From [Clostridium] celerecrescens 18A (GTDB lineage Bacteria; Bacillota; Clostridia; Lachnospirales; Lachnospiraceae): a DNA stretch of 64,000 nt. Location of the stretch: positions 3,665,501-3,729,500 of the forward strand of contig NZ_PGET01000001.1 in the NCBI RefSeq assembly GCF_002797975.1. Direction: 5' to 3'. The stretch's first letter is position 1; each line of letters opens with the position of its first letter. The translations under genes were made by a program, and so were the position numbers. The notes below the pieces were generated by a model. The model ran no database searches. It was given only the letters and a program-made list of their open reading frames with translations, and was not told where the DNA came from. This document shows, piece by piece, positions 30,955 through 63,247 of this stretch.

Positions 30955-32061
30955 TTAACTGTCATCTCGTAAACTGGACGTCAGTTCTTTCATCTTTTTT
31001 TCTGCAAGTTTCTTTTCCGAACTATGTTTTTTCCGCATTTTTTTAACTATGACAAGTAATAAAAGGATGATCAGTAGAATTGAAAGGATTGATAAAGTAA
31101 CGGAATTTGTCAGAAGCCATTTTAGGAAATTCCAAAACCCCTTTCGCCCATCCCTCTCATAAATCGCTGTTACTTCTTTCTTATAGATGATCTGCCCTGT
31201 CTGATTCTCAGCTTCTGCATCAATGTAAGTACCATGATAAACATTGGCTTCTATGGAAGGGAAGGTAACAGCCCCTCCATAGATTCCCCTGATATCTTTT
31301 ACAAATTTACGTCCATGAGCAGTTGCGTTTCGGATCATTTCTCCATCCTTTGACACAGGATCTCCGTCCCATTTTACGCTTGTTATCTTATAATATTGTG
31401 ATGGTAAATTAAGATAACTTAAAAATAATTCTGCGTGATCTATTAAAGGAGAACGGTTAGAAATTTCAGTCTGACCCAGCATATAAGAGTCCGCATCATA
31501 TCCGCTCACGGTTATAGGGAATGTAAAATTATAATCCCAGTAGGCACTTTCTTCTTTAAAACCTACCGCAGGAAGTGTTACATTTAATTCCTGCTTTAAA
31601 TCCTCATTGATAACCTTGACCCGGGCATCTTCCGGTAGAGAATCTATATATTCTACTCCTTCATACAATACGGAGGCTTCTGAATATTTCGTAGTCTCTT
31701 CCGTGACTGCCTTTGAAAGTTCACTGGTTTTTAAAGAATACCTTTTTCCTTCTTGTTCTACTGCTTGGGGTGCATATTTTTCAGGATTTCCAACAAAGGG
31801 ATCGGAATCATATGTAATAATATCTCCTGGATAGATTTCCTCTACATTATCTGTATGAACGGATTTTAACCGATAGATAATACCGTCCTTTTCATAAATT
31901 TCTTTAAACTGTAACCTTCCATCTTCCTCTTTTATAGAGGTCCTATACTCCTTTTTTATTTCAATGAACATTTCCTCCGCACGTGCTATTCCAGCGCACC
32001 CCAAAACAAGGGGTACGACAAGGAATATAGCAGCAAAACCTTTCTTCATCCTATTTTTCAT
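30955..32061 (-). CDS. Secreted/membrane-anchored protein coupled to the giant adhesin, unknown function
   Basis: This 368-residue protein was not recognised as a family. It has an N-terminal signal peptide (hydrophobic GFAAIFLVVPLVLGCAGIARA, ARA cleavage likely, although LVLGC could be read as a weak lipobox), an extracellular region of about 280 residues, then one transmembrane helix (SVTLSILSILLIILLLLVIV, near 325-345) and a basic tail KKMRKKHSSEKKLAEKKMKE. Its start overlaps the end of the adhesin gene by 11 bases, so the two are translationally coupled. An accessory role for the adhesin (assembly, anchoring or display) is my inference. No sortase motif is present. Confidence 0.75.
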   Translation of the reverse strand: MKNRMKKGFAAIFLVVPLVLGCAGIARAEEMFIEIKKEYRTSIKEEDGRLQFKEIYEKDGIIYRLKSVHTDNVEEIYPGDIITYDSDPFVGNPEKYAPQAVEQEGKRYSLKTSELSKAVTEETTKYSEASVLYEGVEYIDSLPEDARVKVINEDLKQELNVTLPAVGFKEESAYWDYNFTFPITVSGYDADSYMLGQTEISNRSPLIDHAELFLSYLNLPSQYYKITSVKWDGDPVSKDGEMIRNATAHGRKFVKDIRGIYGGAVTFPSIEANVYHGTYIDAEAENQTGQIIYKKEVTAIYERDGRKGFWNFLKWLLTNSVTLSILSILLIILLLLVIVKKMRKKHSSEKKLAEKKMKELTSSLRDDS

Positions 32062-35000
32062 CCTTTTTATCTCTTCTTCTCCTTACGATCACAATGGAAG
32101 TAACAATACCAACCAGCCCTATACTTAAGAGCAGTCCCCCTCTCAGATTTACATCACCCGTTTTAGGCAGTCTTCTTAGCCAGCCCCACAATCCTTTTCC
32201 TTTATAGTTAGAAATTCCAAGACCATTCAGGCTGGATTGATATGTGGCTGTGATGAAACCCTTTTTCTTCCCATGCTCCGGATTGTTATACAATATAAAT
32301 TCTCCTGTAACAGCTCCATCATCCGTTACATATATAGTCAGGCAAGCATCAGTCTTTATATATCCCTCTGGGGCCTTTATTTCATGTACGGTATATTTTC
32401 CAGAGCGGAGCGGAAGGAAGGAGATTCCTCCGTTTTCATCTGTTATTCCTTTGTATACAGGCTCTCCGGCTTCATTTCTGATCTCCAGTTCTGCACCGGC
32501 TAATTTTTCTGAGGTTTCAGCGTCTGACTTTTGTATTAACACTTCCGGTGAAGGATGATTTACAACTGATATAGTACTGATTCCTGATACCACACCGTTA
32601 TGAATGGAAAATGAGTACGTGTGATCTGTTGAAAGGTAGCCAGGAGCTGTCTTTGTTTCTTTGTAGGTATAGGTTCCGTTTTCCGGCATATCGAATTTCG
32701 CATATCCATACTCTCCAGTTTTTACAGTCAGGTAAATACTTCCGTTAGGCCGGTAAATAGAAAATTCCACTCCTTTTATTCCCAGTCCTGTAGAAGCATC
32801 TATTTTATATAGAAACATTTTTTCAGAACCAGGGCTATGCTGTTTGAGATCTGTCATTGTGACTTCCAATAGTCCAGAGCTTCTTGGCACTGTAAATGCT
32901 ATGTCTGAGGAAAGAAAATATCCTGATGGAGCTTTCACCTCATGAAGGTAATAAGTTTTTCCAGCCTCTAATCTTCCAGTGATATCTATATCCTCACCTG
33001 TTGTTTCAAAATCTGGAATAACCACATTTTTCTGATGATCCAACACTTGTAATATAGCTCCCTTTAGAAGTACACCGGATGAATCTACTTTATTAAGCCG
33101 AATCGCAGTGACTTTGTTTTTCATTTCAACCATGTCTGCCGCGCCATTTTTACTTACAATGAAAGGAACATCTTCTGCATATGAATATCCAACTACAGGA
33201 TAAATTTCGTGGAGCCAGTACCGTTCTCCCGCTTTTAACTTTGCAATGAGTTCATGAGGTTGCGTCCCAGATATCCACTCTTCCACAATATTTCCATCCT
33301 TGTCTTTTATGCTCATATGATTTCCTGGCAGCTCCTCACTGCCCGTGATAGACTTTTTAGATAGGATCAGATGGGTTGGATTATCAATCATAATAATAAC
33401 GTCCTCATCACCGTTTCTACTGACCGTAAATGGAATATCTTCTGCGTAGGCATATCCATCTGCCGGACTGATTTCGTGTACCCAGTATTTTTTTCCGGCT
33501 TCCAGCTGGCCTTTTAATTCCTTCAACTGAGTTCCTGTGATAAAGATCAGATCTTCTCCGGCCTTAAAACCATTTCCATTACGGATTGCCTTTGCTGGGG
33601 CCTTATCTTCTTTTAAGATCTGAAGCGTACTTCCCGGTAACTGACTGGCTGCTTCTGATGGCGTTCCAATAAGAAGGGAGCCTTTCTGTTTCTTTATTAA
33701 GACCTCTGTTTTTTTATCCCTCATGACTATAGTAGTCAGACCTGGTTCATCTGGAACAGTAAAGGTTACACTCTCGGAATAGCTATATCCAGCCGGAGGC
33801 TCTTCTTCTGAAAGTTCATAAGTTTTTCCTGCAATCAGAAGTCCGGTTAAAACTATCGGTCCCCCATTAGCAGTGAATTTCTTAATTAATGTTCCATTAT
33901 TTTTTTCCCGGATAGAGAAGCGGCCGCCTGTTAATATATCTCCTGTCTCTGCATCTACTTTTATAATCTTTATTTCTGTTTTTTGGTCCTGCATGATAAT
34001 GGTTGTCCGTATGCCGCTTTCCTCCGCCGTGAAGCGGATCTCTTTTTCAAAAGAGTAACCAGCTGGAGGCTGTTCTTCCAAGATGATATATTCTTTTCCT
34101 GGAGTAATCAGTTTTGCTGGTATGAGTACCTCCCTTCCTTCTTCTTTCGTAAATTCAAATATGACTTCTCCTGTTTCTGCATCAATTAGGCTGTAACGGC
34201 CTCCAGTAAGCTCCTCTCCTGTTTGCGCATCCACTTTCGTGATATATAAGTGTACCGTCCGATCTTCCATATCTACATTATCAACCATTCCTGAAGCATT
34301 TAGCTGAAAGCAATAAACTCCGCTTATCAGGCTGCTTCCGTCACTGTACGTTGTGGTTTCCATGAGGCGATAGTTTCCTCCTGCAGTCAAGATATCCCGT
34401 ATCGTTTCATTGTTCCGGCTGCTTTCGAATACTGCGTTCTGTATAGCCTTTGAAACCTCTCCCGTTACCATTCCTCCTTCAATTTGCCCGGCAGAACGGA
34501 GCACACTGTCATAGCCGTCTTTTGGCTCCTGTGTAATCTCATATCTGGTTCCATAGGGCAATCCTGCAAAGGTAAGATACCCATCACCGGTTATTGTGAT
34601 ATTTTCTTCACCTTTGATCCGTCCCTCCGATGTACCACCATATACTTGATATCCAGTTAAGGTCTTTCCAGCAGAGTCCATAAGTCTTACATGGAAAGTA
34701 AATTCATCCGTCTGATCCTTTCCGGTTCCGGTCAGCTTATTTATGATGGTAATGGAACCTTCCGGGACAATGGGATTTGTGAGAGTAGTACGCTTCGTAA
34801 CTACCTCCGTCTGTGTTTCAAAATACACATTTGCCTGCATTCCCGTCTCACCGCTGACCACAGCCACCAAGTCCACCGTACCACTTTCATGGGCAGCGGT
34901 ATCCGTGAGATTCCAGTTAATAATTCCGTTTTGTTCTACTCCATAATTGGTGGATCTTAAATAATCCAGTCCATCTTTCAGGACCGCATTGATACGGATA

Positions 35001-38000
35001 TCAACTGGATGATTGTAAGGATTGGTATAGGAAACCGTGTATTTTATGACACTTCCTGTTTTTACTGCACCGTGATCCGCTCCTATGCTGCTTGTTACTT
35101 GTGCTATAGGGATTTCCCTTGTTACTGGATTTTTGATTGTATAATCATGATTGTCCACATTAACAGTCCAGTTTGCAAGGACGTTACCATTTCCATCGTT
35201 CAGCTCCTGCCTTGTTTCCAGGAATGTCCTGGAAGGAATGGAATAGGATCCGTTTTCGTCAAGATAGATCCGTTTCGTTTCCTTAAAGGACTTTTCTGTT
35301 CTTCCATCAGAATATCTGGTGTATTCGGTGATTTCATATAAATGGCCGTTTATGATTCCATCCTCTGCTGTTAAAACTTGGCCGCTTCCTGTTCCAATAA
35401 AGGAAGGTAGCTCGGTTCCTGTGTCTAAATCTTTTAATATGGTGAATACCTTTACCGGAACTCTTGCGATAACGGTTAGGGCTTCTATGGCACCATTGTC
35501 ACAAGCCAGCTTTAAGATACTAAAATCATTTGATACATTCCGGATTCCGGTTCCCGCTTTATTCAAGGTAAAGATCACCGGTTTTGAAAGAGCATATCCG
35601 GCTGGGGCTTTTAGCTCTTCCATGATGTAAACCCGGTTCGCTGATAGCTTCTTTGTCAAAGTAAAACCAGCCGGACCGGATACGAAAGTCTCAATGGCTT
35701 CTCCAGCCTTATAGTACTCTCCCTCAATGACTACAGCCTCATACACAGCTATTTCTGCACCTTCCACAACCAGACCATTATCAAAGTTAGTCTTTTTAAA
35801 TTGTATTTTTGTTGGCTGGTTCTCAATTTCATAGGTATAAAGTACTTCTTTTCCGTTCTCTTTCCCGTCAAACTGGAACTTCTTCATTCCTTCTGAAATC
35901 TGGTAAAGATCCGATGGAGAAATTTCTTCGATAGCATAAGTGAAAGGCCTTATAGATCCATCTGTCTGCACTATGCCCACCGGAAGTCCGGCTATTTCTG
36001 CCTTTCCATCTGTCCCAGTTGTCATGTACCAGACAGCCCCGGTATCTTTATTAGATACCATAAAACGAGCGTTTTCCAGTCCCTCTCCGGTATCAGAAGC
36101 CTTCTTTTTGATTTCCAGCTTCCCGACATTTGGGATATTTACGACCCGATAAACAGGTACTTTTTCTGTTCCCACGAGGATCTTCATTGGATCTATCTTC
36201 TGCATGTAGGGTGGGGCTGTTAGCTCTGCGATATAATAAGTCCCATAAGGGGTTTTATCGATCCGGTGAGGTTTTAAATCTCCCAGGTCAAATCCCTCCA
36301 GGATGTCCTCATTAAATTTATCGTTTTCCGTATACCTTCCATCTGACCCGGTAATCCAGGTCTGTATTAGATGGGCTTCATCTTCCATAAAGTTCCCGGC
36401 TTCATCAGCCCGGTAAAGGGCCAGTTCTGCGCCCTCTGCAGCATATTCTCTGTCTCCGTCTTTTATAACTTTAAGGACGTTGATATACTTTTCCTCATTT
36501 TCAAGGCTGAATCTCTGCACATTTCCAGTCTCTATAAGGACAATAGCCTTTGGATCGGCTGTTTCAAAGCCAGCCGGTGTCTTTTCTTCCACCAGGACGT
36601 AATTCCCTACGTTCTTCCCTTCTTTTACTGCATTGAAGGGCAAATAATCAATCCGGTGCATTCCTTCTAAGGAGTCATAACTCTTTATCCCGTTTTCCAC
36701 TTCATAGTTGAATTGATATTCAAAGTTTAGAGGAAGCCTTCCATCTGAATCAAGGGAACCATCTCTTACATTCCGGTATATAGTGATTCGAATTGTCTTC
36801 CCGGCATCAGTGGTCCAAGTCTGCACGGTCCCCTCCCCTTTTCCGGTCCGGATGATTTCGCTCCGTTCGGCTGTCCGTTCCCCGTCTTTCGTGTACCAGA
36901 CAAGGGAAGTAAGGGTTTCCCCTTTTTCCTGGTAAGCCGCTTCAAAGTCCGTGATAAAACTGGACTGATTTTCTGCCAGGCCAAGAAAGTCCTTTATGCG
37001 GTACATAAAACCAGTACCTTTTTCTGTTTTTTCTGTATACTCAGTCAAGTCATCCGTCGTCCAGCCCGCTACTCTCTTTTCCTCGTCATATACCGGCATC
37101 ACTCCATCCATCAGAATGTTTCCGTCTTTATCTGTTTTCGCTTCATAAAGGGCCAGGTCAGCCGCATGGCTGTTAGGAAGCTGCAACTTTCTTCCGGGGC
37201 CATCTTCGTAATATTTAAAAACCTCCAGCTTTGTATGATCATTCTTAAGATTTACAGACTGCACTTCTCCGGTAGCTTTTACCGTTAGTTCCATGGAGTT
37301 ACGGACATACCCAACAGCAGCATCTATCTCTTCCAGAATGTAATCCCCTGCCGGAATTCCCTCAAAGTATTTCGGAGTCCCGTCTGTGATCCAGTCGGCT
37401 ATCATTTGTACTGGTGAATTATCGGCTTTATTTTCTATCGTCCATTCTGCCGCCTTACTTTCTGTCTTTACAAAATAGTATCCTTTCGGATAGGTTTCTC
37501 CGTCCGTGGTATAAATCCGCTTTGCTTTATAAAGTGCCAAATGTGCCCCGGAAATCTGAACGTAACTGTAGGCTCCCTTCGGTTCCGTGAATGTAAGTCC
37601 CTCCTGATAATCACTGAGTACATCAAGTCGGTACCGGTCTGCTGCATCGGTCTTTACAATCTCCACCTTGATCTTCTCATCCTGCAGCCCGGTCTTTTGG
37701 ACTTCTCTGGTTTCTATTACGGTAACACCCTCCGGAAATCCCCTGGTATAGCCTGATGGAGCTTTGACCTCTTCCATGATGTACGTTCCTGGGATCACCC
37801 GCTTTAGCATATCGGCCTGGCCTACGGTCATATCGGCCTTAAATGGATCATTGGGGTACTCCTCTCCGGTGATCCAGGTATTCTCCATGATCCATGCTTC
37901 TCCCTTGCGGTGATAAAGCTTCTTATCATCTATGATATCTTCTTCCTTCCCGATATCTTCCATGTTGGCCTTGTCATTGATCCAGTAAGCAGCATTGTTA

Positions 38001-41000
38001 TAGGCAGGAAGAAGGTCATCGTATTTATAACGGACGAAATCACCATCAATGTCATAGACAGGATCGCCCTTTTTGTAGGTTTCAGCCGATCTCTGGTAAT
38101 ACTCCGGAAGGCCATGGCCATTTAGGACCGGTTTCATGCTTTTATCAAAACTATTTCCGTTATAAGTCCCTGTGATATATTCCTGATCCGTGTCGGCGTT
38201 GATGGTAGCGATTCTCCAAGTTTTGATTTTTTCTCTGGCAATGACCGCTCCGGTTTTCGTCCGGGATACCTTTACCGGCCATACCAGGACCTTTTGTCCT
38301 TCTTTCGCGTAGGCCATACCGGTAGTCGGATTCACAAATGCATCCCGGTTACCATTACTGTCCAGGTGATAAAGGATTGTTCCATGGCTTAAATTAAAGC
38401 ACTTGTCTGCCGCAGAGTATTTCACCGCAGACAGATCACCTCCGGTCAATTCGTAGACAGGCTGCCCGGCCTTCAGCACGTAGATGGATTCCCGGTTTTT
38501 TACTTGTACCTGGTTCCCGTTTCGGTCATAACCGTAAAACTTCCCTTTCGCCCCGGTTTCCGTTACTTTCAGCTCTCCAAAGGAATAGAAAAGAATATCT
38601 GTATCCCCCCGCTCTATCGTCCGGTAAGTCCAGATTCCTTCCCCTGGTACTCCGTTTAAGCTTCCTTCCTCATCCTCCTCTCGAATAAATTCAATAGATG
38701 ATCCAGCGTATCCCTTTAATACCTGAATAGACTGAACATTATTATTCCGGTCCCTTATTACCTCAACACCATCATATCCATAATCTCCGCTGTCCCCATT
38801 CTCCACGATTTCTATGGCGTCATAAAGAGTCATCTGCGCCCCGGCCACGTAGCGGTTGTTATCGTCTGCGGTATCTAAGGGCCTGGATATCAGGCCATAC
38901 CCGGCAAATACCCCATCAACATAGACCGGCTCTGCATCTTCGCCTGCGGCCTTTCTGGATTCTAAGTACTCCAGGGTACCTTTGAACCAGGCATAGCCTA
39001 AGTAAGTTCCGTTTTTGTAGGCAAATTCAAGGTTTTCTGTCCCATACCTTTGTTTTAACTCCAGTTCTGTTCCTTCTAACCTGGTGTTGGTTTTGTATAT
39101 GACCGTCTGCTCAGAGTCCTTGATTTTGGATATTTCCAGGCGTAATGGAGTATTCCCTACATAAATCCTAGCGATGTTTGTAAAACCCTGTGGCCCTTCT
39201 CCTGACTTATCTTCATAAATAGCCGCCGCTACCCGGTCGTCTCTGTTTCCGTCCAGGTAGTAGGTAGTCCGGTCGGAATAAATTTCTATGGCTACTGGCT
39301 CTGTCCTTATATAACCAGCTGGTGGTTTAATTTCACAAAGAACATAAGTTCCGGCACCAAGAGGCTGTGGAGTAATCAGATATCCGGTATTCTGATCTTG
39401 ATAGGATGTTTCTGTTAAATCCTCTTCCTTGGCCCCAGTGTGCCCCGCTTCATCGGGCAGAAGGCCGTCCCTGGTGGTTGTAAAGGCTTCAAACTGTCCT
39501 GTCCTTCTTCCTTCCTGATCGGTAAGTATCACTTGTTCCGATTCCTTACATATGGGTGTTCCTGCCGGAACAGTTCCCTTCCAGGCATTCCCTTCAAGGG
39601 CAATATTCTTGGCTCCCATGGCTTCTAAAAATTCCATTGATCCTTCGATCCGGGTATCCATTTCATAAAACTTTACCAGACCTTCCGTATTCACTCCGTC
39701 CTCCCGGGACGCTGCATAAAGAGCAAACAAGGCTCCGTCATGAAGAAGGTTTTCCCCTGTCTCTGAATCCAGCTTTTCAATCCTCAGCTTAGCTTTAAAA
39801 AAACTATTTCGAAACTTCGTATATCCAAAGCCTTTGTATGAACTCTCTCCGTTTGGGGATAGGGTACTGTCCGCTGCCTCTGTTACTGCATTGTAAGGGG
39901 CCACGACCGTCCATGGAACAAGCATAGGGGCATACTTTCCATCATAAGCTATCTGTACGCCCTGCATAGTCGTTACATTATCTTTGTACTGGATTCCAGC
40001 ACCATTGTTCTCTGTAATGGTTCCCCCAGGAAATGGAACATCATCAGCGATACCTTTATTTTCTGCCACGGAGCTGTAACGGTAGTATTTTGATACGGTA
40101 TCTCTTCCACTTAAGCCTTCTGACAGGTAATATGGGACATTTCCACTCGTCCTATCATCCTGCTCATTGTAGTAGTTCTTATATGGTTTGAATCTGTTCT
40201 GGCTCAGTGCAAAATAGTCACCTGATCCCGTCCCCGCCACACCATTTCTGATGTTGCCAATGTCCATGCCGTACTTGTAAACTTCAAAGTCGCCATCCGC
40301 ATTCCTGCCCTTGATTACGTTTACACTCTCCTCATTGAAACGGATCTTGTACTTCCTCTCCATCTCAGGCTGTGTTATGCCAACTGAATAATTGTAATAA
40401 TTATTAGTCACTTCCGGTGTATCCTGGGAGCCATCATAATCCGCATATACAGACGGGAGAGAGACTTCTCCTGGCTTATCAATCTGGTAATGCTTGTTCT
40501 TTAAATCCCCCAGATTGCTGAATTTGGGCTGCTGTTCTGCCACTATATAAGTTCCGTATGGAAGATATTTTGAAGTAGCAAAGTAATAACCATGACTGTT
40601 TCCAGCAATGTCACCAAATAGGGTATCCGCTGAAAGTGTTGTAAGATCTTTATCTGATCCGCCATCCTTTGCACTATCCCATTTAATGGAATAAATCCGG
40701 TCAAGATCATAAGCGAAGAAGGGGGTTAAATAGTTTTCTGCCTTTTGGATGGCTTCTGAAAGGGCTTTGTCGTAAACCTCATTGGAATGAGCATTGCCAC
40801 CTGTGGCGCTTACCGTTTCTCCAGCCTGATTTTTCTTCACCAGCTTTGCCACTTCGTCATCCAAATACCAGGTAATGGCAAACTGGCGGACATGATCAGA
40901 ACGTAGGGCATTATCCGTAGCTATATCCGATGTATTGATATGGTTCTTAATTACGGAATTATTGTGGACCACTGGATACTGTTTTTCTGCACCGCTTGTT

Positions 41001-44000
41001 CCAAACAGGAGCTTCTTTATTAAGGCAAAAGGCTTAAAAGAAGTGCTTCCATTATCTGTACGATTCCACTTATCATCATTGGCTACAGTTATGGCATCAA
41101 AGAACTTTTCATAATTATAAACAGAAATGATTCCTGCTCCATCACTGCTATCCGTCTTTGCCGATTTGGTTTCCAGTACGGAAGTATAGCCGTTATTCTG
41201 ATTCCCGTTAATAAAACCATTCGTATAGCTGTACAAGGTATTATTGCTTACAATTGCATCCTCTGAGTCTTTATATAAAGGAGAGGTGACACGCTGCACT
41301 TTTGTGAAAACCTTGTTTACCAGGGCCGGGAATTTCTCATTTCGATCAATCACATTAATTTCATTTCCCAGCCTGTCCTGCCAGATTATATTTCCATCAT
41401 TGTCACGGTAAAGTCGTTCCAGATTTGATTTTAAGTATATCTTAAAGCGGAAGTTGTCCATCTTCTTGGCCACCGTGTCTCTTCCAAGACGCCCGCCAAG
41501 GGTTCTTGTAAACCAGTCATCATGGATTTCGGCATAGGAGTTGGTGTTGTCGTATGTCTTTTCATCAATGGTCTTCGTTACCTTGATCTGCTGTCCGATG
41601 ATACGTTCCAGCACAGGGGTTGGTGTTTCACTTGTATTTCCATCCTCAATAAGATTGTGATATCCATTGAAAATCAAATGCTGATTCTTAATAAAGGTCT
41701 TGTTGGAATCAAATTCTGCGGAAGTAGAGACTCCTGCACCTGCTCCGGAAACACGGATTACATATTCTGCATTGGATATACTAGCCCCAGCCGTATACCC
41801 CCACACATTGTTTGAACCGATCTTACTTATATCTTCATTTGTTACAACGGTCTTTCCATTATTAAGTGCGATTGTAAAGTTACCTGATTTTGCTCCGGTT
41901 AGGTCCATATCCTTTGAACCGACATGAATGGTATATTGCTTTGAAACCTTATCATAATAGTAATAGCTGCTGCCCACCCGGTTCGCCACTTCCGTAGAGT
42001 TAACCTGGGGAATTTTAGAAGAGTTTACATTCTCTTCATTTACAATGACCTCCTTGTAATTCGGCTTCCAGACTTTCCTGGTTACGGGAGCATGGCCTAC
42101 GTAAGTACCGCCATTTAAGTGCCAGTAATCGTAAAGGGTTTCTCCTGCAGCATAACGAAGGTACCTCTCGCTATCTGTCGGATACATGGTTTTATCCGTT
42201 GGGATTCCATCATCACCCACTTCATAATCTGGTGTTACGTTAATCATGTATTTGCCTGCATTTCCTACTTCTGCAGCATTTAATTCATTCCCTGTGTACT
42301 TTCTGATAATATATCTTTCGTAGGTGGTATTCAGTTTTGTTAAGTAAGCAGCAACGATATCGCCACCGGAATTTGTTTGATACAGCAAAGTCCTCCCCGG
42401 ATTCATACCGACAACGACCGTTACAATGACTTTCCAGCCGTTATATTCCACTTTTTGAAGGCCGCCATAGGTAAATACTTTTTCATTGATGTAATAATTT
42501 AATATTGTTTCGATCACTGATTTATTAGTCGTGGCATTCTCAATTTCAAGGACCATTTCCGGCCTGCCATAGACAATTTTTCCATTCACTATCCGTTTCT
42601 CATCATAGACTGGGACATCAGTCGTAGAATAATCACCATCTTTCGGAGTTTCCATATGGAGAGAATTACGCATCATCTGCTCCAATTCAGCTTTCACATA
42701 ATTTATGTTACTTTCTGAAATCGTGAAAGCGCTGGTAAACCTCGCCGGGTCACTGGCCGCAGCAGTCCCCTCTGTAGGAAGTTTATCGGCTTCGGTTCCG
42801 TAGGCTTCGTAAGGAACCTTGATGCTTGCAGTGACCCCTGATTTCTCAATCAGGTTTCCATTGATATCACGCTTATAAACGGAGTCTGATTCTGCTGTCA
42901 GATAAAATGGTGCTTCCTTTGCATCAACCCAGTCTCCTCCATCCACTTGCCGGATCACTACTGGATTCAATGTGACGTTGTTTAGATATATATCCGCTCC
43001 TTCTGAAATTCCATCAAGGACTACGTTATAACCATTCGTGGCATCCTTTGATTTTGTTTCGAGAAGAAGTAAGTTTTCTTTATTTCCATAAGCAGCATTT
43101 TCTTCTGGGAAGGTAACTGCATGGTATAGCTGCCTTGTTATCCAGGCAGATCCTGCCGGAGCCGTTCTTGAATCAGTGGTGCCGCCATAGGACTCACGGG
43201 TACTTTTTTCTGCATTGGTTACCTCCAAATCCTTTCCGGTAATCGAAAGCTCATATCCTTCGGAACGAGTAAGTTCTTTGATATAATAATTGCCAAGGAT
43301 TAAAGGTCTTCCTATCCAGCTGTCCCCATTCATGGTTTTATTATCTTTATAGATACGTCCCTTTTCCTCTTGTGGATGTGCTTTGTCATAATCGTTTTTG
43401 ACATACAGGTTTTTTGGATATTCCTTTCCGGTATATTCAATCTTTCCTGCCTTGTAATTGTAGATACTATGAGGTCTTTCTGTTATCGTTAAGAAGGAAC
43501 CTTCCCCATTTTTATCAGTGGCCGCAACTGAGACAAGATCATTTGCATCAAATACCACTCCAATACCGGCTGTTACATTTCCACTTCCATCTCGCTGTGT
43601 GTCCGGTCCGTAAATAGGATCAGCCGCAAACAAACCATATACTGCACCTTCTAAGGTTGCATCTCCCTGGGAATCTCCATAGGAATCAAAATCTACAGAC
43701 TCCCCGGCCTTTAATTCCATATCTCTCTTATTGAAATGAACCTGTCCTGGTACACGATGATCGTATACTTTAAAGGTATGAGCTGTATTATTACTCGGTC
43801 CTTTATCTACTTCCGGTTGGCTGTCCTCTTCTCCTTCTTCAAACATTTTACTGGTAGCTCTGCTGAGAGCATTTAAACCAAGCTTTGTTGTCATGACTGG
43901 TTCTTCGTCAGTATTTTCAGCAAAAAGTCTGACCTGCCTTATTCCTCTTTCTTCTTTAGGAAGAGATGCATCGGAATCTGTGGCCAGACTATGTCTTAAT

Positions 44001-46180
44001 GAAAGATTCATAAAGTTCCTTCTAGCCTGAGATGGAGTAGATTCATCTTCATCATCTAAGAATTCATCCAGAAATTCCTCTTCTGTATCAAACTCTTTAT
44101 CATATAACTCTTCATCCTCCTTAGCGGTAAGTTTGACGGTTATCTCCTTTTCCTCTGCAAAAGCACTGGGAAGCCCTATAAACTTTAGTAATTTGTTGAT
44201 GATTCTTTCTTTTAATGGGAGATCATAGGTTTCTTTCAGGATTAAATCTCCACTTTCCTCATTATCATCAGAATATGTAGATGAAGATGTACTTGCCACA
44301 TTGCTATCGTTATCAGCAAGTAATAATTCTTCCTCATCTGTCAGGCTGGAAATATCTGATTCAGGGATTTCCATGTTTGTTAAACTCCGCATTGCTAATT
44401 CCGTAAGGTTGTCTTCACTACTTGAACTGCCCTTCGTTATATTTCGGACATATCCCGTAACTCTTATATCTGCATTACTGGAACTTTTCCACCTTTTAGC
44501 TCTTCCGGCTTCGGAAGCTGCTGTTGTGATAATTTCAATCGGAACGTCATCCGGATGTCCCGGATCATGAATGATGTAGCCATCCCTTGGCTTTGTTTCC
44601 CTGAACGTGTAATCATACTCAAGATTGATAAATATTTCATATGCATCATCCCTGGCAGCCTTACAGCCTGATGCTTCAAATGCTTCTTCCTCAGACGGCT
44701 CCTCTTCACTACCGCATTCCCAGTGATGGAATGTTCCTCCACTGGCCGCCACACACGCTTCACATTCATCTACTGCCGCTTGCCATTCCTCCATTAATCT
44801 TTCATACTCTTCTGCCCCCTCATCGGTGTCATCGCTTCCTTCCCCTTCTCCTTCCCCTTCTTCTCCACCTTCCGATTCATCAATTTCCGGTTCCGGGGGA
44901 ATTGGATGGCCATTGCAATAAGCATGACTAAAATCATAAAAACGGGTATCTTTATGGGAGACTCGCCCACTGGCATCCGTTACAAGATCATCGTCAAATA
45001 TCAGCCAATCCTGCCAGGTTGTTGGATCTTCTCTCATGTTGTCTTTTATGATTCCGCCATCTGATTCATCATCACTTAACTGGCTATCGTCGAAATGCTC
45101 CAATACCTGCCATGTAGAACCCTGCAAAGGATTTCCAGTTTCATAGTCTCTTTTTTCCAGATCAACTTTATAATTGGTTTCAAAGGTTTCATTGTGTCGA
45201 TAAACCTTTAAGGACACTTCTCCTCCATCAGTAATTAATGAAGGGGTATTTGAACTGTATTTTGTAGTGAGGAAAAACTCGCAGGTTTTTTCTTTCACAT
45301 TTCCTTTTGCTCGATATAGTTGCTGTGAGCCTTGGATGTTACACTGGAAATACTCCAGGCTACCTGTGACTTCCAATACCCTAAAAATAGCTGGATTATA
45401 ACTAATCTTCATGACAGCTTCGGTTGGTTTTTGTCCAGCCGGGGCTTTAGGGAAACTCCAAGAGAGATTCTGGCCTTCCGTATTAATGACCAATCCAGGC
45501 GTTACTGCTTCAATGATACAATATTTTTTAAATGTTTCCCAATCTGTAAGCCCAGTTAACTCATACAACTTAGTTGTATCTATCTGCCCAGGGCCACTTC
45601 TTAAATCATTGATATACATAGCCTTGCTCTCGGAATTGTACCTACTGATTAACTCTAGGATATCCTTTGGTTTTTTACAGCCATCTGGAATGTTCTCCAA
45701 AGACATAAAACCGTCATTCGCTAAGTTTTCTACCCGTTCAGACCCACCATTGCTTTTCCCTTTCGACCATGCGACATCTCTTGCTTCATCTTTAGTAATA
45801 CGGCCAAACTGAGAGTTAAGAGATGTATTTAAATCATAACTTTCAAACGCTAATATATAAGCCCAGAACATTCTTTTCTGCTCAATGGTTCCTTTAAAAT
45901 AATCAATATCTGAATTAACCTTAGAATAATCGTAATTGCTATGGGCTGTAGCACCTGAGTTCATGCATAAAAACCATTTGTCTCTATCATCACCGGGAGC
46001 CCTTCCCATTAGGTACGGATGTCCGGCCTGTCCGGAACTGACAAACACTAAACCAAAACCCCAGGTATTAAAAATACCTGGTGGTAAATACGTAAAAATA
46101 AGTGTCAATAATAAAATAGTTGCAAGTAGCCCAGCAATTTTTTGATTTAGTTTTTTACCACTTTTCCAACTTCTGATCAT
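32051..46180 (-). CDS. Giant LPXTG-anchored Cna-B/SpaA-type adhesin, 4709 aa
   Basis: This very large surface protein has an N-terminal hydrophobic export segment (residues about 15-32) and a distinctive N-domain (about 50-330) with WFLCMNSG (Cys72). About twenty Cna-B/SpaA modules follow, recognised by openings such as FRIEKLDSETGE, HLYITKVDAQTGEEL and VLIQKSDAETSEK and closings such as HEIKAPEGY and LEEQPPAGY. These carry the Lys and Glu used for internal isopeptide bonds. One region (about 3700-3800) resembles DUF11. It ends with LPKTG, a hydrophobic helix and RRRRDKK, a sortase anchor. Acidic and Ser-rich linkers lie near 430-460 and 560-760. AAGGAGAATAG precedes the ATG. No sortase is encoded in the window. 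Ligand unknown. Confidence 0.92.
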   Translation of the reverse strand: MIRSWKSGKKLNQKIAGLLATILLLTLIFTYLPPGIFNTWGFGLVFVSSGQAGHPYLMGRAPGDDRDKWFLCMNSGATAHSNYDYSKVNSDIDYFKGTIEQKRMFWAYILAFESYDLNTSLNSQFGRITKDEARDVAWSKGKSNGGSERVENLANDGFMSLENIPDGCKKPKDILELISRYNSESKAMYINDLRSGPGQIDTTKLYELTGLTDWETFKKYCIIEAVTPGLVINTEGQNLSWSFPKAPAGQKPTEAVMKISYNPAIFRVLEVTGSLEYFQCNIQGSQQLYRAKGNVKEKTCEFFLTTKYSSNTPSLITDGGEVSLKVYRHNETFETNYKVDLEKRDYETGNPLQGSTWQVLEHFDDSQLSDDESDGGIIKDNMREDPTTWQDWLIFDDDLVTDASGRVSHKDTRFYDFSHAYCNGHPIPPEPEIDESEGGEEGEGEGEGSDDTDEGAEEYERLMEEWQAAVDECEACVAASGGTFHHWECGSEEEPSEEEAFEASGCKAARDDAYEIFINLEYDYTFRETKPRDGYIIHDPGHPDDVPIEIITTAASEAGRAKRWKSSSNADIRVTGYVRNITKGSSSSEDNLTELAMRSLTNMEIPESDISSLTDEEELLLADNDSNVASTSSSTYSDDNEESGDLILKETYDLPLKERIINKLLKFIGLPSAFAEEKEITVKLTAKEDEELYDKEFDTEEEFLDEFLDDEDESTPSQARRNFMNLSLRHSLATDSDASLPKEERGIRQVRLFAENTDEEPVMTTKLGLNALSRATSKMFEEGEEDSQPEVDKGPSNNTAHTFKVYDHRVPGQVHFNKRDMELKAGESVDFDSYGDSQGDATLEGAVYGLFAADPIYGPDTQRDGSGNVTAGIGVVFDANDLVSVAATDKNGEGSFLTITERPHSIYNYKAGKIEYTGKEYPKNLYVKNDYDKAHPQEEKGRIYKDNKTMNGDSWIGRPLILGNYYIKELTRSEGYELSITGKDLEVTNAEKSTRESYGGTTDSRTAPAGSAWITRQLYHAVTFPEENAAYGNKENLLLLETKSKDATNGYNVVLDGISEGADIYLNNVTLNPVVIRQVDGGDWVDAKEAPFYLTAESDSVYKRDINGNLIEKSGVTASIKVPYEAYGTEADKLPTEGTAAASDPARFTSAFTISESNINYVKAELEQMMRNSLHMETPKDGDYSTTDVPVYDEKRIVNGKIVYGRPEMVLEIENATTNKSVIETILNYYINEKVFTYGGLQKVEYNGWKVIVTVVVGMNPGRTLLYQTNSGGDIVAAYLTKLNTTYERYIIRKYTGNELNAAEVGNAGKYMINVTPDYEVGDDGIPTDKTMYPTDSERYLRYAAGETLYDYWHLNGGTYVGHAPVTRKVWKPNYKEVIVNEENVNSSKIPQVNSTEVANRVGSSYYYYDKVSKQYTIHVGSKDMDLTGAKSGNFTIALNNGKTVVTNEDISKIGSNNVWGYTAGASISNAEYVIRVSGAGAGVSTSAEFDSNKTFIKNQHLIFNGYHNLIEDGNTSETPTPVLERIIGQQIKVTKTIDEKTYDNTNSYAEIHDDWFTRTLGGRLGRDTVAKKMDNFRFKIYLKSNLERLYRDNDGNIIWQDRLGNEINVIDRNEKFPALVNKVFTKVQRVTSPLYKDSEDAIVSNNTLYSYTNGFINGNQNNGYTSVLETKSAKTDSSDGAGIISVYNYEKFFDAITVANDDKWNRTDNGSTSFKPFALIKKLLFGTSGAEKQYPVVHNNSVIKNHINTSDIATDNALRSDHVRQFAITWYLDDEVAKLVKKNQAGETVSATGGNAHSNEVYDKALSEAIQKAENYLTPFFAYDLDRIYSIKWDSAKDGGSDKDLTTLSADTLFGDIAGNSHGYYFATSKYLPYGTYIVAEQQPKFSNLGDLKNKHYQIDKPGEVSLPSVYADYDGSQDTPEVTNNYYNYSVGITQPEMERKYKIRFNEESVNVIKGRNADGDFEVYKYGMDIGNIRNGVAGTGSGDYFALSQNRFKPYKNYYNEQDDRTSGNVPYYLSEGLSGRDTVSKYYRYSSVAENKGIADDVPFPGGTITENNGAGIQYKDNVTTMQGVQIAYDGKYAPMLVPWTVVAPYNAVTEAADSTLSPNGESSYKGFGYTKFRNSFFKAKLRIEKLDSETGENLLHDGALFALYAASREDGVNTEGLVKFYEMDTRIEGSMEFLEAMGAKNIALEGNAWKGTVPAGTPICKESEQVILTDQEGRRTGQFEAFTTTRDGLLPDEAGHTGAKEEDLTETSYQDQNTGYLITPQPLGAGTYVLCEIKPPAGYIRTEPVAIEIYSDRTTYYLDGNRDDRVAAAIYEDKSGEGPQGFTNIARIYVGNTPLRLEISKIKDSEQTVIYKTNTRLEGTELELKQRYGTENLEFAYKNGTYLGYAWFKGTLEYLESRKAAGEDAEPVYVDGVFAGYGLISRPLDTADDNNRYVAGAQMTLYDAIEIVENGDSGDYGYDGVEVIRDRNNNVQSIQVLKGYAGSSIEFIREEDEEGSLNGVPGEGIWTYRTIERGDTDILFYSFGELKVTETGAKGKFYGYDRNGNQVQVKNRESIYVLKAGQPVYELTGGDLSAVKYSAADKCFNLSHGTILYHLDSNGNRDAFVNPTTGMAYAKEGQKVLVWPVKVSRTKTGAVIAREKIKTWRIATINADTDQEYITGTYNGNSFDKSMKPVLNGHGLPEYYQRSAETYKKGDPVYDIDGDFVRYKYDDLLPAYNNAAYWINDKANMEDIGKEEDIIDDKKLYHRKGEAWIMENTWITGEEYPNDPFKADMTVGQADMLKRVIPGTYIMEEVKAPSGYTRGFPEGVTVIETREVQKTGLQDEKIKVEIVKTDAADRYRLDVLSDYQEGLTFTEPKGAYSYVQISGAHLALYKAKRIYTTDGETYPKGYYFVKTESKAAEWTIENKADNSPVQMIADWITDGTPKYFEGIPAGDYILEEIDAAVGYVRNSMELTVKATGEVQSVNLKNDHTKLEVFKYYEDGPGRKLQLPNSHAADLALYEAKTDKDGNILMDGVMPVYDEEKRVAGWTTDDLTEYTEKTEKGTGFMYRIKDFLGLAENQSSFITDFEAAYQEKGETLTSLVWYTKDGERTAERSEIIRTGKGEGTVQTWTTDAGKTIRITIYRNVRDGSLDSDGRLPLNFEYQFNYEVENGIKSYDSLEGMHRIDYLPFNAVKEGKNVGNYVLVEEKTPAGFETADPKAIVLIETGNVQRFSLENEEKYINVLKVIKDGDREYAAEGAELALYRADEAGNFMEDEAHLIQTWITGSDGRYTENDKFNEDILEGFDLGDLKPHRIDKTPYGTYYIAELTAPPYMQKIDPMKILVGTEKVPVYRVVNIPNVGKLEIKKKASDTGEGLENARFMVSNKDTGAVWYMTTGTDGKAEIAGLPVGIVQTDGSIRPFTYAIEEISPSDLYQISEGMKKFQFDGKENGKEVLYTYEIENQPTKIQFKKTNFDNGLVVEGAEIAVYEAVVIEGEYYKAGEAIETFVSGPAGFTLTKKLSANRVYIMEELKAPAGYALSKPVIFTLNKAGTGIRNVSNDFSILKLACDNGAIEALTVIARVPVKVFTILKDLDTGTELPSFIGTGSGQVLTAEDGIINGHLYEITEYTRYSDGRTEKSFKETKRIYLDENGSYSIPSRTFLETRQELNDGNGNVLANWTVNVDNHDYTIKNPVTREIPIAQVTSSIGADHGAVKTGSVIKYTVSYTNPYNHPVDIRINAVLKDGLDYLRSTNYGVEQNGIINWNLTDTAAHESGTVDLVAVVSGETGMQANVYFETQTEVVTKRTTLTNPIVPEGSITIINKLTGTGKDQTDEFTFHVRLMDSAGKTLTGYQVYGGTSEGRIKGEENITITGDGYLTFAGLPYGTRYEITQEPKDGYDSVLRSAGQIEGGMVTGEVSKAIQNAVFESSRNNETIRDILTAGGNYRLMETTTYSDGSSLISGVYCFQLNASGMVDNVDMEDRTVHLYITKVDAQTGEELTGGRYSLIDAETGEVIFEFTKEEGREVLIPAKLITPGKEYIILEEQPPAGYSFEKEIRFTAEESGIRTTIIMQDQKTEIKIIKVDAETGDILTGGRFSIREKNNGTLIKKFTANGGPIVLTGLLIAGKTYELSEEEPPAGYSYSESVTFTVPDEPGLTTIVMRDKKTEVLIKKQKGSLLIGTPSEAASQLPGSTLQILKEDKAPAKAIRNGNGFKAGEDLIFITGTQLKELKGQLEAGKKYWVHEISPADGYAYAEDIPFTVSRNGDEDVIIMIDNPTHLILSKKSITGSEELPGNHMSIKDKDGNIVEEWISGTQPHELIAKLKAGERYWLHEIYPVVGYSYAEDVPFIVSKNGAADMVEMKNKVTAIRLNKVDSSGVLLKGAILQVLDHQKNVVIPDFETTGEDIDITGRLEAGKTYYLHEVKAPSGYFLSSDIAFTVPRSSGLLEVTMTDLKQHSPGSEKMFLYKIDASTGLGIKGVEFSIYRPNGSIYLTVKTGEYGYAKFDMPENGTYTYKETKTAPGYLSTDHTYSFSIHNGVVSGISTISVVNHPSPEVLIQKSDAETSEKLAGAELEIRNEAGEPVYKGITDENGGISFLPLRSGKYTVHEIKAPEGYIKTDACLTIYVTDDGAVTGEFILYNNPEHGKKKGFITATYQSSLNGLGISNYKGKGLWGWLRRLPKTGDVNLRGGLLLSIGLVGIVTSIVIVRRRRDKKDEK

Positions 46181-46271: not shown

Positions 46272-47339
46272 TTAATTAAATTTTATAAACGGAGCCCGTT
46301 CTCCATAAATATATCCATAAGAGATATTAGGAAACTTTCCTTCCACACTTACTGGAATTTCATAGCCAGTTGCTTCACAGTATTCACCTAATTTTGCTAA
46401 TTGCGGTTCGTCTCTTAAATAAAAAGATGGAGAATAAACATCTGCTACAGTAAAGTAATTATCTTTACTGGTTGGCTCATAAGCTAACCACATTCCATCC
46501 ACCAAAAACACAGGATAAATATGATTGCCAAAACCAAGTCCATTAGAAGGTAATCCAACACACGCCGCTAATAAATACGCTGCATTAGTATATCCATTAC
46601 AATCTGCTTTTCCATCTACAAGGCAGCTGTAAGAATACTGCGTACCTTCATGGTTTAGATAATCAGCCTTTGTAATTCTTTTTGCAATCTGTACCGCTTT
46701 TTCGTAATCTGTTGCATTTCTCCAATCAAAACTGTTTAAGAAGTTCCGTATTTCCAATGTCAGACGGTTCAGCTTTTCTTGATCCACCCCCTCCAATCCT
46801 GTAGTTGGATAGTCCGTCAATTTTGCAATAGCAGCCAACTCCTTTCCATCACCAAAATAGTTAAGAGAAAGAGGATCCCTGTTTCTGATGGCAAGATCCA
46901 AAGCATACTGCAAATGATTATTTGACTCATAGAAGAAGTTATTCGGATCGCTTTTCCAAGCAGTTGTACCAGTAACCGGACTGGTCACAAACCATTGTTC
47001 CATATATCCTTTTAAGGGATATTGAGGATCATAATTACCTGCGTTAGCCTTAGCTGGCATGCTGGCATACTGTATCTGCACAACACCATTCACAACCCAC
47101 GCTCCATCTGAATTAACTGAATAACCGTCAGGAGTGGTCATGTTAGCAAGCATCTTCCCGGTCGTATCAAAGAAGTAGGATTTTCCATCAATCCAATTCC
47201 AGCCTGTTGCATAAGAGCCATTATCATTCTGGTATTTCCACACAGCACCTTCCTGCTTCCACTGTCCTGCAAAAGAAGTTATAGCTGATCCAATTATTAA
47301 AATAACTGATGCAGCAGCCGTCAATAATTTCTTATTCAT
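46272..47339 (-). CDS. Secreted transglutaminase-like protein with cell-wall-binding repeats
   Basis: This 355-residue protein has a signal peptide (residues 1-24, SAITSFAG). Wall-binding repeats (WKYQNDNGSYATGWNWIDGKSYFFD, then TTPDGYSVNSDGAW) span about 25-85. A transglutaminase/protease-like core follows, with Cys247 (KADCNGYTNAA) and His273 (GNHIYPVFLVDG). The usual third residue, Asp in a VDPT-type motif, is replaced by Glu288 in AYEPT. The fold is used for protein cross-linking or peptide cleavage; which applies here is not known. GGGGGATTTAAGT precedes the ATG. It has its own promoter with a palindrome and a terminator, so it is a separate unit beside the adhesin. Confidence 0.82.
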   Translation of the reverse strand: MNKKLLTAAASVILIIGSAITSFAGQWKQEGAVWKYQNDNGSYATGWNWIDGKSYFFDTTGKMLANMTTPDGYSVNSDGAWVVNGVVQIQYASMPAKANAGNYDPQYPLKGYMEQWFVTSPVTGTTAWKSDPNNFFYESNNHLQYALDLAIRNRDPLSLNYFGDGKELAAIAKLTDYPTTGLEGVDQEKLNRLTLEIRNFLNSFDWRNATDYEKAVQIAKRITKADYLNHEGTQYSYSCLVDGKADCNGYTNAAYLLAACVGLPSNGLGFGNHIYPVFLVDGMWLAYEPTSKDNYFTVADVYSPSFYLRDEPQLAKLGEYCEATGYEIPVSVEGKFPNISYGYIYGERAPFIKFN

Positions 47340-47507: not shown

Positions 47508-47939
47508 CTAATTAAATGGCAAATCTGGATCAGCCACTCCATCAGATATATTCATAAAGCTGTCCCCTACTACATTAGGCGATGCTGGCCTGGAATTATC
47601 AGAAGATACATTCCTGCTATCAGCAAATTCCTGTTCATCCACAATGATATCCGTTGTATATACTCTATTTCCGTCCTTATTTGTATAACTCCCAGTCTGG
47701 ATTCTTCCGTAAATCAGTACTCTCATACCCTGGCGGAAATATTTTTCTGTAAACTCACCTGCTTTGTCAAATGCAACGCAATTGATAAAGTCAGCTGTCT
47801 GTTCATTGCCGTCCTGATTCCTGCGGCCTCTGCGGTCAACTGCGAGAGTATACCTTGCAACTGCCATAACATGCTCTCCTTGGGAATATCTTACTTCTGG
47901 GTCACGGGTTAATCTCCCCATTAAAATTATACGATTCAT
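47508..47939 (-). CDS. ssb: Single-stranded DNA-binding protein, accessory copy
   Basis: This 143-residue OB-fold protein begins MNRIILMGRLTRDPEVRYS, contains the core VDRRGRRNQDGNEQTADFINCVAFDKAGE and RVLIYGRIQTGSYTNKDG, and ends DPDLPFN, an acidic tip like the usual DDDIPF that recruits repair proteins. Start chosen at 47939, where GGAGGAAAAT precedes the ATG. It sits in the surface-protein locus rather than with rpsF/rpsR, so it is probably an additional copy. A weak hairpin precedes its ribosome site. Confidence 0.93.
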   Translation of the reverse strand: MNRIILMGRLTRDPEVRYSQGEHVMAVARYTLAVDRRGRRNQDGNEQTADFINCVAFDKAGEFTEKYFRQGMRVLIYGRIQTGSYTNKDGNRVYTTDIIVDEQEFADSRNVSSDNSRPASPNVVGDSFMNISDGVADPDLPFN

Positions 47940-47999
47940 ATTTTCCTCCATTCCTCCCTGCCCCTATGAGCAGGGGTTATGTATTTTTATTATGTTGTT

Positions 48000-50900
48000 T
48001 TACTGTACCCATTGGCCTTTCTTATTAACTGTATATCCATCTGGTGTAACAGTGCTGATTAAGAGTTTACCTCTTGTTCCATCGGAAGCAGGGTTAAAGA
48101 AATACCATGCTCGCGCTTCAGCTTGTCCCGCTTCACCGGGTATGTACTGCCACCCGGTAAGCATTTGGCCCTGAGTTCCGTCCATTTCAGTTTTTAAGTG
48201 ATAAGTATTTCCATCTGGATCTGTTAGCCAGCCTGTCACCATAAACCCATCTCTGCCAAACCGAAACCAGGAGGCTTTTTCCTGCTCTCCGGTTGCGTAT
48301 GGGTTACTGATATATGCCCATTCATCAGCATACGTCCGGTTTGACGCAAAGATCCATTTTCCATTTGCCACCTGTGTCCAGGTTCCCGTTACTGCTCCAG
48401 CCGGAGCTGCTGGCCCCTGTGTATTCCCTGCAGTCGTTACTCCCACGGAGTGGGCACTGCTTCCGCCTCCAGAGGAACCACTGCCTCCGCCGGAGCTGTT
48501 GGAGGTCGTATTGTCTATTACCCTAAAATTAAGAGTAACAGTTACCGGATCAAACATCTTTCCATCACTCGCAGATGCATAAACTGTTACCGCTGCGGTT
48601 CCGGTATATGGGTATTTTGTCATGGCCTTCTTAATCCAATTCGCCATAACCTCCTGTTTTTCATTATAAACTACAGGAGTCGCGTTTCCTTCCTGATCCA
48701 CAGTAAGGATACTGGCATCAGAGGAACGCCATAGTACATTCTTCATATCCTGGATTCCGGAATAAATGGTAGCATTGAATTTCTTGCTTTCAAATCCTTT
48801 CCATGAATAAACGGGGTTGCTTGATCTTCCTGTCTTTGTGAGTATCAGGTCATAGTTCTCACCTTCCCGGTCTGCCTCGATGCATTTTGCCTGGAAGGTT
48901 AATGTAATCTTACAGGAAGCATCTTTCTGGCCATCTTTTGTTACGGCCATGATCTCCACGTTCTTTTCCGACCGATACGGCGCCTTTGAAAGTGCTTCTC
49001 TGATCCACGGTGCTCCGTCAACCGGTGCTACATTCCCTTCCTGATCCACCGTTACTGTTTCCGGATCGGAAGATATCCATAAAACGCTTCGATCATAGGG
49101 CTTATGCTCTGTGGTATCCTCCACCTCCGGAAGAACGGCCGCGGACAGTTTTATCGTTTCAAAGCCAAACTTTTGGACTGTTACGGAATGGATGTCCCCT
49201 GCCTTTTGATACCCAAGACTATAAGAAAGCGCTGTCCTATCCAGAGTGATCCCTTCCGGAATGATCCTTGTCTGGTCATCGGTTACAAACTTTACGTTTA
49301 CCTGGCATGTGGCAGAAGCCTGATTTCCAAGCTTGTCCTTCCCATTTACCATTACAATTACCTCCCGGCTTCCGGCTCCAGATATCTTTGCATACTTATC
49401 ACTCTCCCGGATCCCATTATCCGATGCCATGATATTTCTGATCCAGGCAGAATCCTTTCGGACAGAAACTGATGCCTCCCGGTAAGCTTCTAGATCCTGA
49501 GATACTAGGGCCACTGCAGGGTCCGAGCTTGTCCAGGTCACTTCATCCCTGGAGAAAAAATCAGGTGTAAGTGTAGCCGTTAATGACTGGGGTGCCGTTA
49601 CTGACACGATTTCCTGTGGATTAGTCCGGTCCCCGGTTAAGGTTCTTGTTACGGTATATGTAAGGGCCTGTTTATCTAGGTCGGCCCCCTCCGTTGCCAC
49701 TAAGGTATTATCCAGGATCTGATATGTGACATTGATCCGGCTGTTCGCCATACAGGGCTTACCTTCAAAGGAAGCGGAAGGCCTGGTCTGTGCTGTCAGG
49801 ACCGCAACGCCGCCGTTCTGGTGTCCGGCTCCATAAATTGTATTGGGGATCTTATACTGGTAATTCCCTTCCGCCTGGGTTCTTTCTGCCACTTCTGTGA
49901 TGCTTGTAAAAAATGAGGAAGAAAGGTTTACAGTAAGGCTGGCTGATTTGGCCGTATAGCCATCAGTCCCCTCATCATCATTTTTTGCCAGGCTGATAAG
50001 CTGAGGATCGTCAATGCTCCATTTCACCCGGCCGTCCTCTACGTCATTATTGGCATCAATGATGGCCTTGATATTTACTGGTTGAACTTCGGTTCCCTGC
50101 TCTAACACTCCGTTGATATAACGGGCAATTAGCTTCCCTTCCTTATTCCTGATCTCTGTGGTCTTTACTGGGCTTTTCCGGTTACCTGTCCTGGTCTGTA
50201 CTACTGCAAAAGAATAATCCTCTGGTTTCACCTCGATGGATACTGCCACCTTCTTATAAACCGCTGATACAGATATATCCTCCTGCGGCATCGAAAAGGT
50301 ATAGGCATGGCTGTTATCCAAATAAATAGTACTCTTCTTTACTCCTTTACTGTTTGAGTAAGTTGGAGTACCCTCCATCTGGAACTTTTCTGTATCCGTA
50401 TTCTTTGGAGCTGTTGTTACGTTTACTGTTGTCCCGGCTGCGATGGCACCCCGATGTTCCTTATCAAGAGCTCTGGAGTACTGGGAGCTTCCCCTCACCT
50501 CCAGGGTAGCGATATTGTAGAAGTTCTGACCATTTGCCGCCGTATCGATCTGATTCACATTTAACAGATACCCCCTCACGGGGCGCCCCAGGGAATTTGG
50601 GGCAAAATGATCCAGAACGTAATCCCCATGTTGCTCATCCACGATGGTCAGAATGCCATTTTCTAATTCTTCGTAAAAATACCGGTCTGATATGGTCTTT
50701 TTAACCCCGCCCTGCACCAGGGTATAATGCAGATCCCCGGCATGCCAGTAGCCTACATGCGCAGCATAGGTATAGTCGTTATCATCACTGATCTCTGATC
50801 CGCATACATTGGAGCTGATCTTGCTTTCAGAATCCGTAAACAGATAGGCCACATCTTCTATGTAATTAAAGTTTGTTGCGGCTCCCTGCCTGGTTCCGAT

Positions 50901-63017: not shown

Positions 63018-63212
63018 TATGGTTTACCTCCTGTTTAGTCTGAGCCTCCCGGTTGCCCGCAAGGCCCGCTCGTATAAACCGCAAAGAAAAACCCCTCCGC
63101 CGGATGGACGGAGAGGTCTACAATTCATTTACATAAAATGATTCTTGTACATTCCTCGGCAGGCGTTAACACCTTATGCCTTGCGGCACCTGCTGTCTTC
63201 GGCAGTCAATAC
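63018..63212 (-). ncRNA. Ribosomal protein L10 leader
   Basis: The minus-strand leader contains the L10-leader landmarks GCAAGGCATAAGGTGTTAACG and TGCCGAGG. It is followed by a stem at 63092-63116 and a T-run, matching the Firmicutes L10 leader as I remember it. The L10(L12)4 complex should bind it and set antitermination. The exact ends are estimated from the promoter and the rplJ start. Confidence 0.82.
63092..63116 (-). terminator. Attenuator hairpin inside the L10 leader
   Basis: On the minus strand CCTCTCCG and CGGCGGAGGGG form a GC-rich stem followed by TTTTTCTTTG, about 75 nt before the rplJ ATG. It is the likely terminator arm of the leader switch. Confidence 0.8.
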
Positions 63213-63218
63213 TAGCAT

Positions 63219-63247
63219 AGTATAACATTATTTATAATTAATGTCAA
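63219..63247 (-). promoter_or_regulatory. Sigma-A promoter of the rplJ-rplL operon
   Basis: On the minus strand TTGACA, 17-bp spacer, TATACT, immediately after the rplA stop. Confidence 0.8.

Follow-up and report, generated by a model that had tools for sequence, protein, structure and literature searches.

A candidate thioester-isopeptide giant adhesin with an overlapping membrane-partner gene in [Clostridium] celerecrescens 18A

What kind of surface protein is encoded by a single 14.1-kb gene of [Clostridium] celerecrescens 18A, and how does it reach and hold on to the cell wall? The gene lies at 32051–46180 of the window, by which we mean the whole 64,000-nucleotide stretch analysed here (contig NZ_PGET01000001.1, positions 3,665,501 to 3,729,500); all window features given below are on the minus strand. 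A preliminary description of this DNA took the product for a giant isopeptide-type, sortase-anchored protein, which is supported; its views that the stalk grows by local duplication and that a class A sortase might be found to attach it are not. It had overlooked the thioester-type head, an overlapping partner gene, a conserved upstream cluster and relatives fused to the partner or to a sortase. We consider it probable that the product, P0001, is a single-chain giant adhesin of the thioester-isopeptide (TIE) type that binds covalently, depends on a class B sortase for its anchoring and is assisted by a membrane partner; of these elements, we infer the thioester bond and the part played by the partner in anchoring.

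A single gene of conserved length

The frame opens with ATG and runs uninterrupted for 4709 residues, as previously described, with the coding strand being the minus strand; the plus strand over 32051–46180 is rich in stops. A homologue search, with scoring limited to the 1386 candidates that had the most words in common, gave 139 proteins at E ≤ 0.001, 120 of which were listed. Among the 24 nearest (P0002–P0025), 22 are 4662–4740 residues long and the other two 4510 and 5012, and both P0002 and P0015 align to P0001 almost completely in a single segment. This near-constant length and the full-length alignments contradict a frameshift artefact, which had been named as a possible objection. The giants are collinear from about residue 1462 on, except for the last modules, and differ between some family types in their heads (residues 1 to ~315) and in residues 1067–1461 (41798–42982), where some head types show no significant alignment to each other.

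The outline of the preliminary description is retained at both ends of the protein. An export-type N-terminus (residues 1–40, hydrophobic at 17–33; 46061–46180) precedes a separate N-domain, and the C-terminus carries an LPKTG sorting motif (residues 4671–4675; 32156–32170) followed by a membrane-spanning stretch and a basic tail (residues 4680–4709 and stop; 32051–32143). Its claim of near-duplicate modules failed, and its module count of about twenty became 17, as detailed below. Just past the export signal, the frame contains an inverted repeat of 9 bp and a T-rich tail (46061–46081), possibly reflecting attenuation or chance.

The head is a predicted thioester domain

The predicted fold of the head (residues 40–295; 45296–46063) resembles solved thioester domains (TEDs), placing a TED-like fold at the N-terminus in the structure model. 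The likely thioester cysteine is Cys72 (45965–45967), within the motif FLCMN. Besides Met1, it is the sole invariant column in 22 of 22 diverse heads (alignment A4), which were picked by locus and not by the Cys motif. The residues L71-C72-M73-N74 fit the TED motif [YFL]C(hydrophobic)(polar), as defined in PMC6194298 and PMC4450167. The likely thioester glutamine, Gln286 (45323–45325), was assigned from a comparison of heads and from the alignment range ends of SfbI, PnTIE and CpTIE, which, if a gap-free alignment is assumed, put the thioester Gln at model residue 251, that is, Gln286. This residue lies on a late strand, as a thioester Gln should, and is Gln in all 63 of the heads that have the motif C[MFLI][ND]; a count of Cys72 over the same 63 heads is circular, because these rows, YCID-type heads included, were selected by their Cys motif. 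Cys72 and Gln286 are thus the residues likely to form the bond.

Isopeptide modules of the stalk

Pfam recognizes SpaA in 12 stretches of P0001 (E 1.7e-120), as well as a DUF7601 domain (residues 3808–3912; 34445–34759). By iterated profile and inspection we counted 17 Cna-B/SpaA-type modules, so that the type given in the preliminary description is right and the number is not; structure prediction of the single module modelled returned the expected Cna-B fold. A check for Lys-Glu-Asn/Asp triads, which it had proposed, found them complete (Lys, E-box Glu, and Asn/Asp in the last strand) in 16 of 17 modules. The remaining one, module A1 (residues 323–565; 44486–45214), for which the Asn/Asp was not assigned, contains a long helical insert (residues 422–485; 44726–44917) whose Cys422, His425, Cys473 and His485 are invariant in all 16 rows of a family alignment (alignment A1). 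Ten modules retain Lys as well as Glu in 16/16 rows of this alignment; other departures from the triads are mostly gaps, the last modules being absent from several rows.

An acidic low-complexity linker (residues 566–805; 43766–44485) separates module A1 from module A2 (residues 806–1002, K818/E969/N989; 43175–43765). These are followed by a large conserved Cna-B-like core (residues 1528–1955, K1536/E1882/N1949; 40316–41599), module B1 (residues 2127–2317; 39230–39802), modules B2–B7 (residues 2343–3554; 35519–39154) and, beyond DUF7601, SpaA modules D1–D7 (residues 3973–4636; 32273–34264). Module B1 has two conserved cysteines, Cys2211 (16/16 rows) and Cys2282 (15/16), one of which adjoins the E-box Glu; a disulphide within this isopeptide module is possible from their conservation. 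Precomputed annotation of giants among the homologues listed includes PF28468, which is absent from our Pfam scan of P0001, probably because the family is newer than the Pfam copy used.

A membrane partner, distant sortases and natural fusions

The 3′ end of the giant gene is overlapped by 11 bases by a partner gene (30955–32061) encoding 368 residues, with a secreted all-beta domain and a C-terminal membrane helix predicted from sequence and structure prediction. The partner is present in 25/25 genomes searched of the genus. No sortase is encoded within the window, as had been noted, and the only two Sortase-family hits of the genome lie more than 1.1 Mb away, one on each side; anchoring would therefore fall to a sortase encoded elsewhere. 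A class A sortase, for which a search had been suggested, is not supported: both sortases pass the NCBIfam class B model TIGR03064 (190.5 and 177.0 bits against a cut-off of 153.75). A class B sortase exceeds this cut-off in 25/25 genomes of the genus. Another giant LPKTG protein, 5107 residues long (G000:C1, locus L115, 1546–16869, plus strand), is encoded in the same genome; it is only weakly similar to P0001 in its SpaA parts and is adjoined by neither partner nor sortase.

Of 79 loci compared, 9 had no intact giant by the cut-off used and 7 had fewer than 1200 bases downstream, leaving 63 that could be evaluated. In 24 of these 63, giant and partner form one fused protein, and in 4 of the 24 a class B-like sortase is fused as well. 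A clear TG signal followed by a hydrophobic stretch precedes the partner in 17/24 fusions, so sortase cleavage would part the partner from the arm. A database search, in which 1533 candidates sharing most words were scored and protein length was bounded by the search, yielded 61 Sortase-bearing giants whose tails are related; the 62 proteins of this search include many near-alike entries. Two such giants, P0268 and P0270, represent clusters of 3510 and 1188 member sequences and are apparently abundant in public data. The fused sortase of L075 contains TLSTC, with its Arg not at the spacing required by the search pattern.

Linkage to a sortase is accompanied by a different sorting motif. The motif xPxTG occurs in 1/12 giants with an adjacent or fused sortase and in 30/36 without one (Fisher p 5.6e-6, uncorrected for kinship). 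This test excluded rows in which no TG motif was recognised, the unlinked rows L026, L032, L043 and L051 that were kept are doubtful, and L012 was counted as unlinked despite a sortase 3.6 kb downstream. In a tree test of 43 rows with both traits, those four rows were set aside by hand, the window was added and L012 was counted as linked; on the core tree, sortase linkage requires no fewer than 7 changes, and so does the motif.

Upstream genes

Cell-wall-binding genes upstream share the strand of the giant and are conserved beside giants. The nearest (46272–47339) encodes a cell-wall-binding protein with a transglutaminase-like domain, by a weak Pfam match (17.8 of 23 bits), in which Cys247 and His273 are kept in 18/18 aligned sequences. 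Its relatives lie directly upstream of the giant in 15 of the 62 loci with room, and their occurrence follows the head, by approximate labels: 9/14 for CMN (the P0001 type), 4/9 for CLEP, 2/21 for other heads, 0/14 for CID and 0/10 for CxH. This distribution, together with the conserved Cys247 and His273, suggests a putative head-specific helper. Farther upstream are genes for a 1399-residue Big_2 cell-wall-binding protein (48000–52199) and a 780-residue choline-binding-repeat/DUF6273 protein (52380–54722). Relatives of the Big_2 gene are found within 5 kb upstream in 49/62 loci with room; in 20 the distance is at most 100 bases, and in 3 more the relative overlaps the called start of the giant.

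Within this surface-protein cluster lies a gene (47508–47951) whose product we take to resemble a single-stranded-DNA-binding protein; its relatives are found upstream of giants in L003, L010, L015, L016 and L039. At gathering score, Rfam matches a single element of the window, a Ribosomal protein L10 leader at 63077–63220.

Discussion

Fold, Cys, Gln, modules and anchor, as predicted from sequence and model, fit the TIE proteins SfbI, CpTIE, SaTIE and BaTIE, with which P0001 shares an N-terminal thioester-domain-like fold, the [YFL]C(hydrophobic)(polar) motif, a Cna-B stalk and an LPXTG-type anchor. It differs from them in its 17 modules and 4709 residues, in the overlapping membrane-partner gene and in a genome in which only class B sortases were found, and in relatives the substrate is fused to the partner, with or without the sortase. 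Giant TIE proteins are already known: PMC10619420 describes a 7651-residue Mobiluncus mulieris adhesin that is likewise a giant single chain with an LPxTG anchor and a thioester head revealed by structure prediction. According to the same text, its stalk is built from 51 Ig-like repeat domains that contain ester or isopeptide links and its homologue differs by large isopeptide-domain insertions, whereas P0001 has a partner gene and a stalk of 17 Cna-B-type modules, divergent and fixed in order. The partner itself recalls SipA of Streptococcus pyogenes pili, presented in PMC4049620 as an accessory protein essential for the assembly of a sortase-dependent surface structure.

We propose that the Cys72–Gln286 thioester of the head would react with an amine on a target, either the host or a neighbouring surface, and that internal isopeptide bonds in the modules would give an arm that resists stretching and has a fixed length. 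Once exported, the arm would be cut by a class B sortase between the Thr and Gly of LPKTG and joined to peptidoglycan. The partner would be produced together with the giant and act at the membrane, in either export or sorting. Where fused relatives have a recognisable signal, the partner lies beyond the cut and would be left behind in the membrane, and would therefore be a handling or anchoring factor and no component of the completed arm. Some relatives have partner, sortase and arm joined in one polyprotein that is perhaps self-anchoring. A broader proposal, to which we give even weight for and against, is that substrate, partner and class B-like sortase constitute a dedicated anchoring cassette for giant covalent adhesins, occurring as separate genes, pairs or polyproteins, in which a fused sortase would anchor in cis and free itself, the partner, an all-beta protein that may belong to no described family, acts as a membrane escort, and linkage lets the motif drift from xPxTG to xxxTGD.

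Several results weigh against the covalent, class B-anchored reading and favour, in part, other accounts of the arm. All structural Z scores are below 8, the listed TIE protein 6fwv was aligned via its Cna-B part only, and profile comparison with 28 thioester domains was weak (probability 0.2–5.7, best E 0.0067). Pfam TED gave no sequence-profile match to the head, and the helper motif TQXX(hydrophobic)W was not found, the nearest stretches, EQKRMFW and RDVAW, not fitting; according to PMC4450167, most putative TEDs have this motif but not all do, and the bond does not require its Gln or Trp. Moreover, the column of Gln286 is Gln in only 6/16 rows of alignment A1, in a part poorly aligned across head types. 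The lack of the helper motif and of a Pfam match, together with this column, would suit a purely mechanical or structural fibre whose head keeps the thioester-domain fold and binds non-covalently or has lost the bond. The isolated invariance of Cys72 and the retention of Gln286 in every head with the Cys motif speak against such a fibre, which we regard as unlikely though worth bearing in mind. The stalk could also be the rapidly growing repeat array of the preliminary description, since its last modules share similar E-box motifs and are fewer in some relatives (P0027, P0044). However, the supposed near-duplicates D3 and D4 (with YWVHEISPADGY and YWLHEIYPVVGY) are 43% identical and no pair within the last seven modules exceeds 44%, whereas same-position modules of P0002, P0004, P0009 and P0015 are 75–95% identical to those of P0001 (14/17 modules compared). 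Module order is collinear in relatives, and the heads and last modules vary. Judged by these identities, the stalk is an old fixed design, not a growing repeat, and growth by duplication is highly improbable. A polymerised pilin, its subunits joined by a pilin sortase, would account for SpaA/Cna-B modules with E-box motifs and for the weak score of a pilus ancillary protein model (41.7 bits against a cut-off of 600), yet no class C (pilin) sortase was found, the two sortases found in the genome both exceeding the class B cut-off, and a single chain of 4709 residues is very long already; we give this account very little credence.

The remaining objections concern the anchor and the partner. Pfam Gram_pos_anchor falls below its cut-off in P0001 (15.7 of 20 bits). 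Unlike the two genomic sortases, the five linked or fused sortases tested, for which TIGR03064 is the best NCBIfam match, all score below its cut-off (90.1–152.7 of 153.75 bits); the fused ones scanned were L074 (129.3), L075 (139.8) and L061 (90.1, a partial piece), with L076 and L077 outside the scan. The association of motif and linkage comprises few independent events, with five well-supported pairs, 4.4 of them opposite on average and 0 the same (sign test p 0.06–0.25), and it falls short of significance because there are only five such pairs. Three genomes of the genus carry the partner without a giant-core match, and 24/63 loci have neither partner nor sortase, fused or adjacent. The TG signal before the partner was not found in 5/24 fusions and is doubtful in 2, so cleavage there is uncertain. 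In those five, arm and partner could stay joined, as would be expected if the partner were part of the displayed structure. It might otherwise be a sensor or regulator that shares the operon by chance. The large all-beta domain agrees with a role other than anchoring, as do four loci in which the partner gene lies just upstream of a relative of the 780-residue gene, away from the giant. The clear signals in the other 17 fusions, and the position of the partner directly before the sortase in 4 loci, argue for an anchoring factor instead, and a non-anchoring partner seems to us the less probable choice, if a serious one.

In the literature searched, we found no description of the partner or of a natural substrate-partner-sortase fusion, and both are new relative to it. 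Natural fusions of a sortase to its giant substrate would permit a direct test of cis-anchoring and of sortase substrate choice, and the conserved, uncharacterised partner suggests that surface display in Lachnospiraceae has a missing component. Thioester heads that escape sequence models, carried on giants of gut and environmental bacteria, would widen the reach of covalent adhesion past the set of proteins examined to date.
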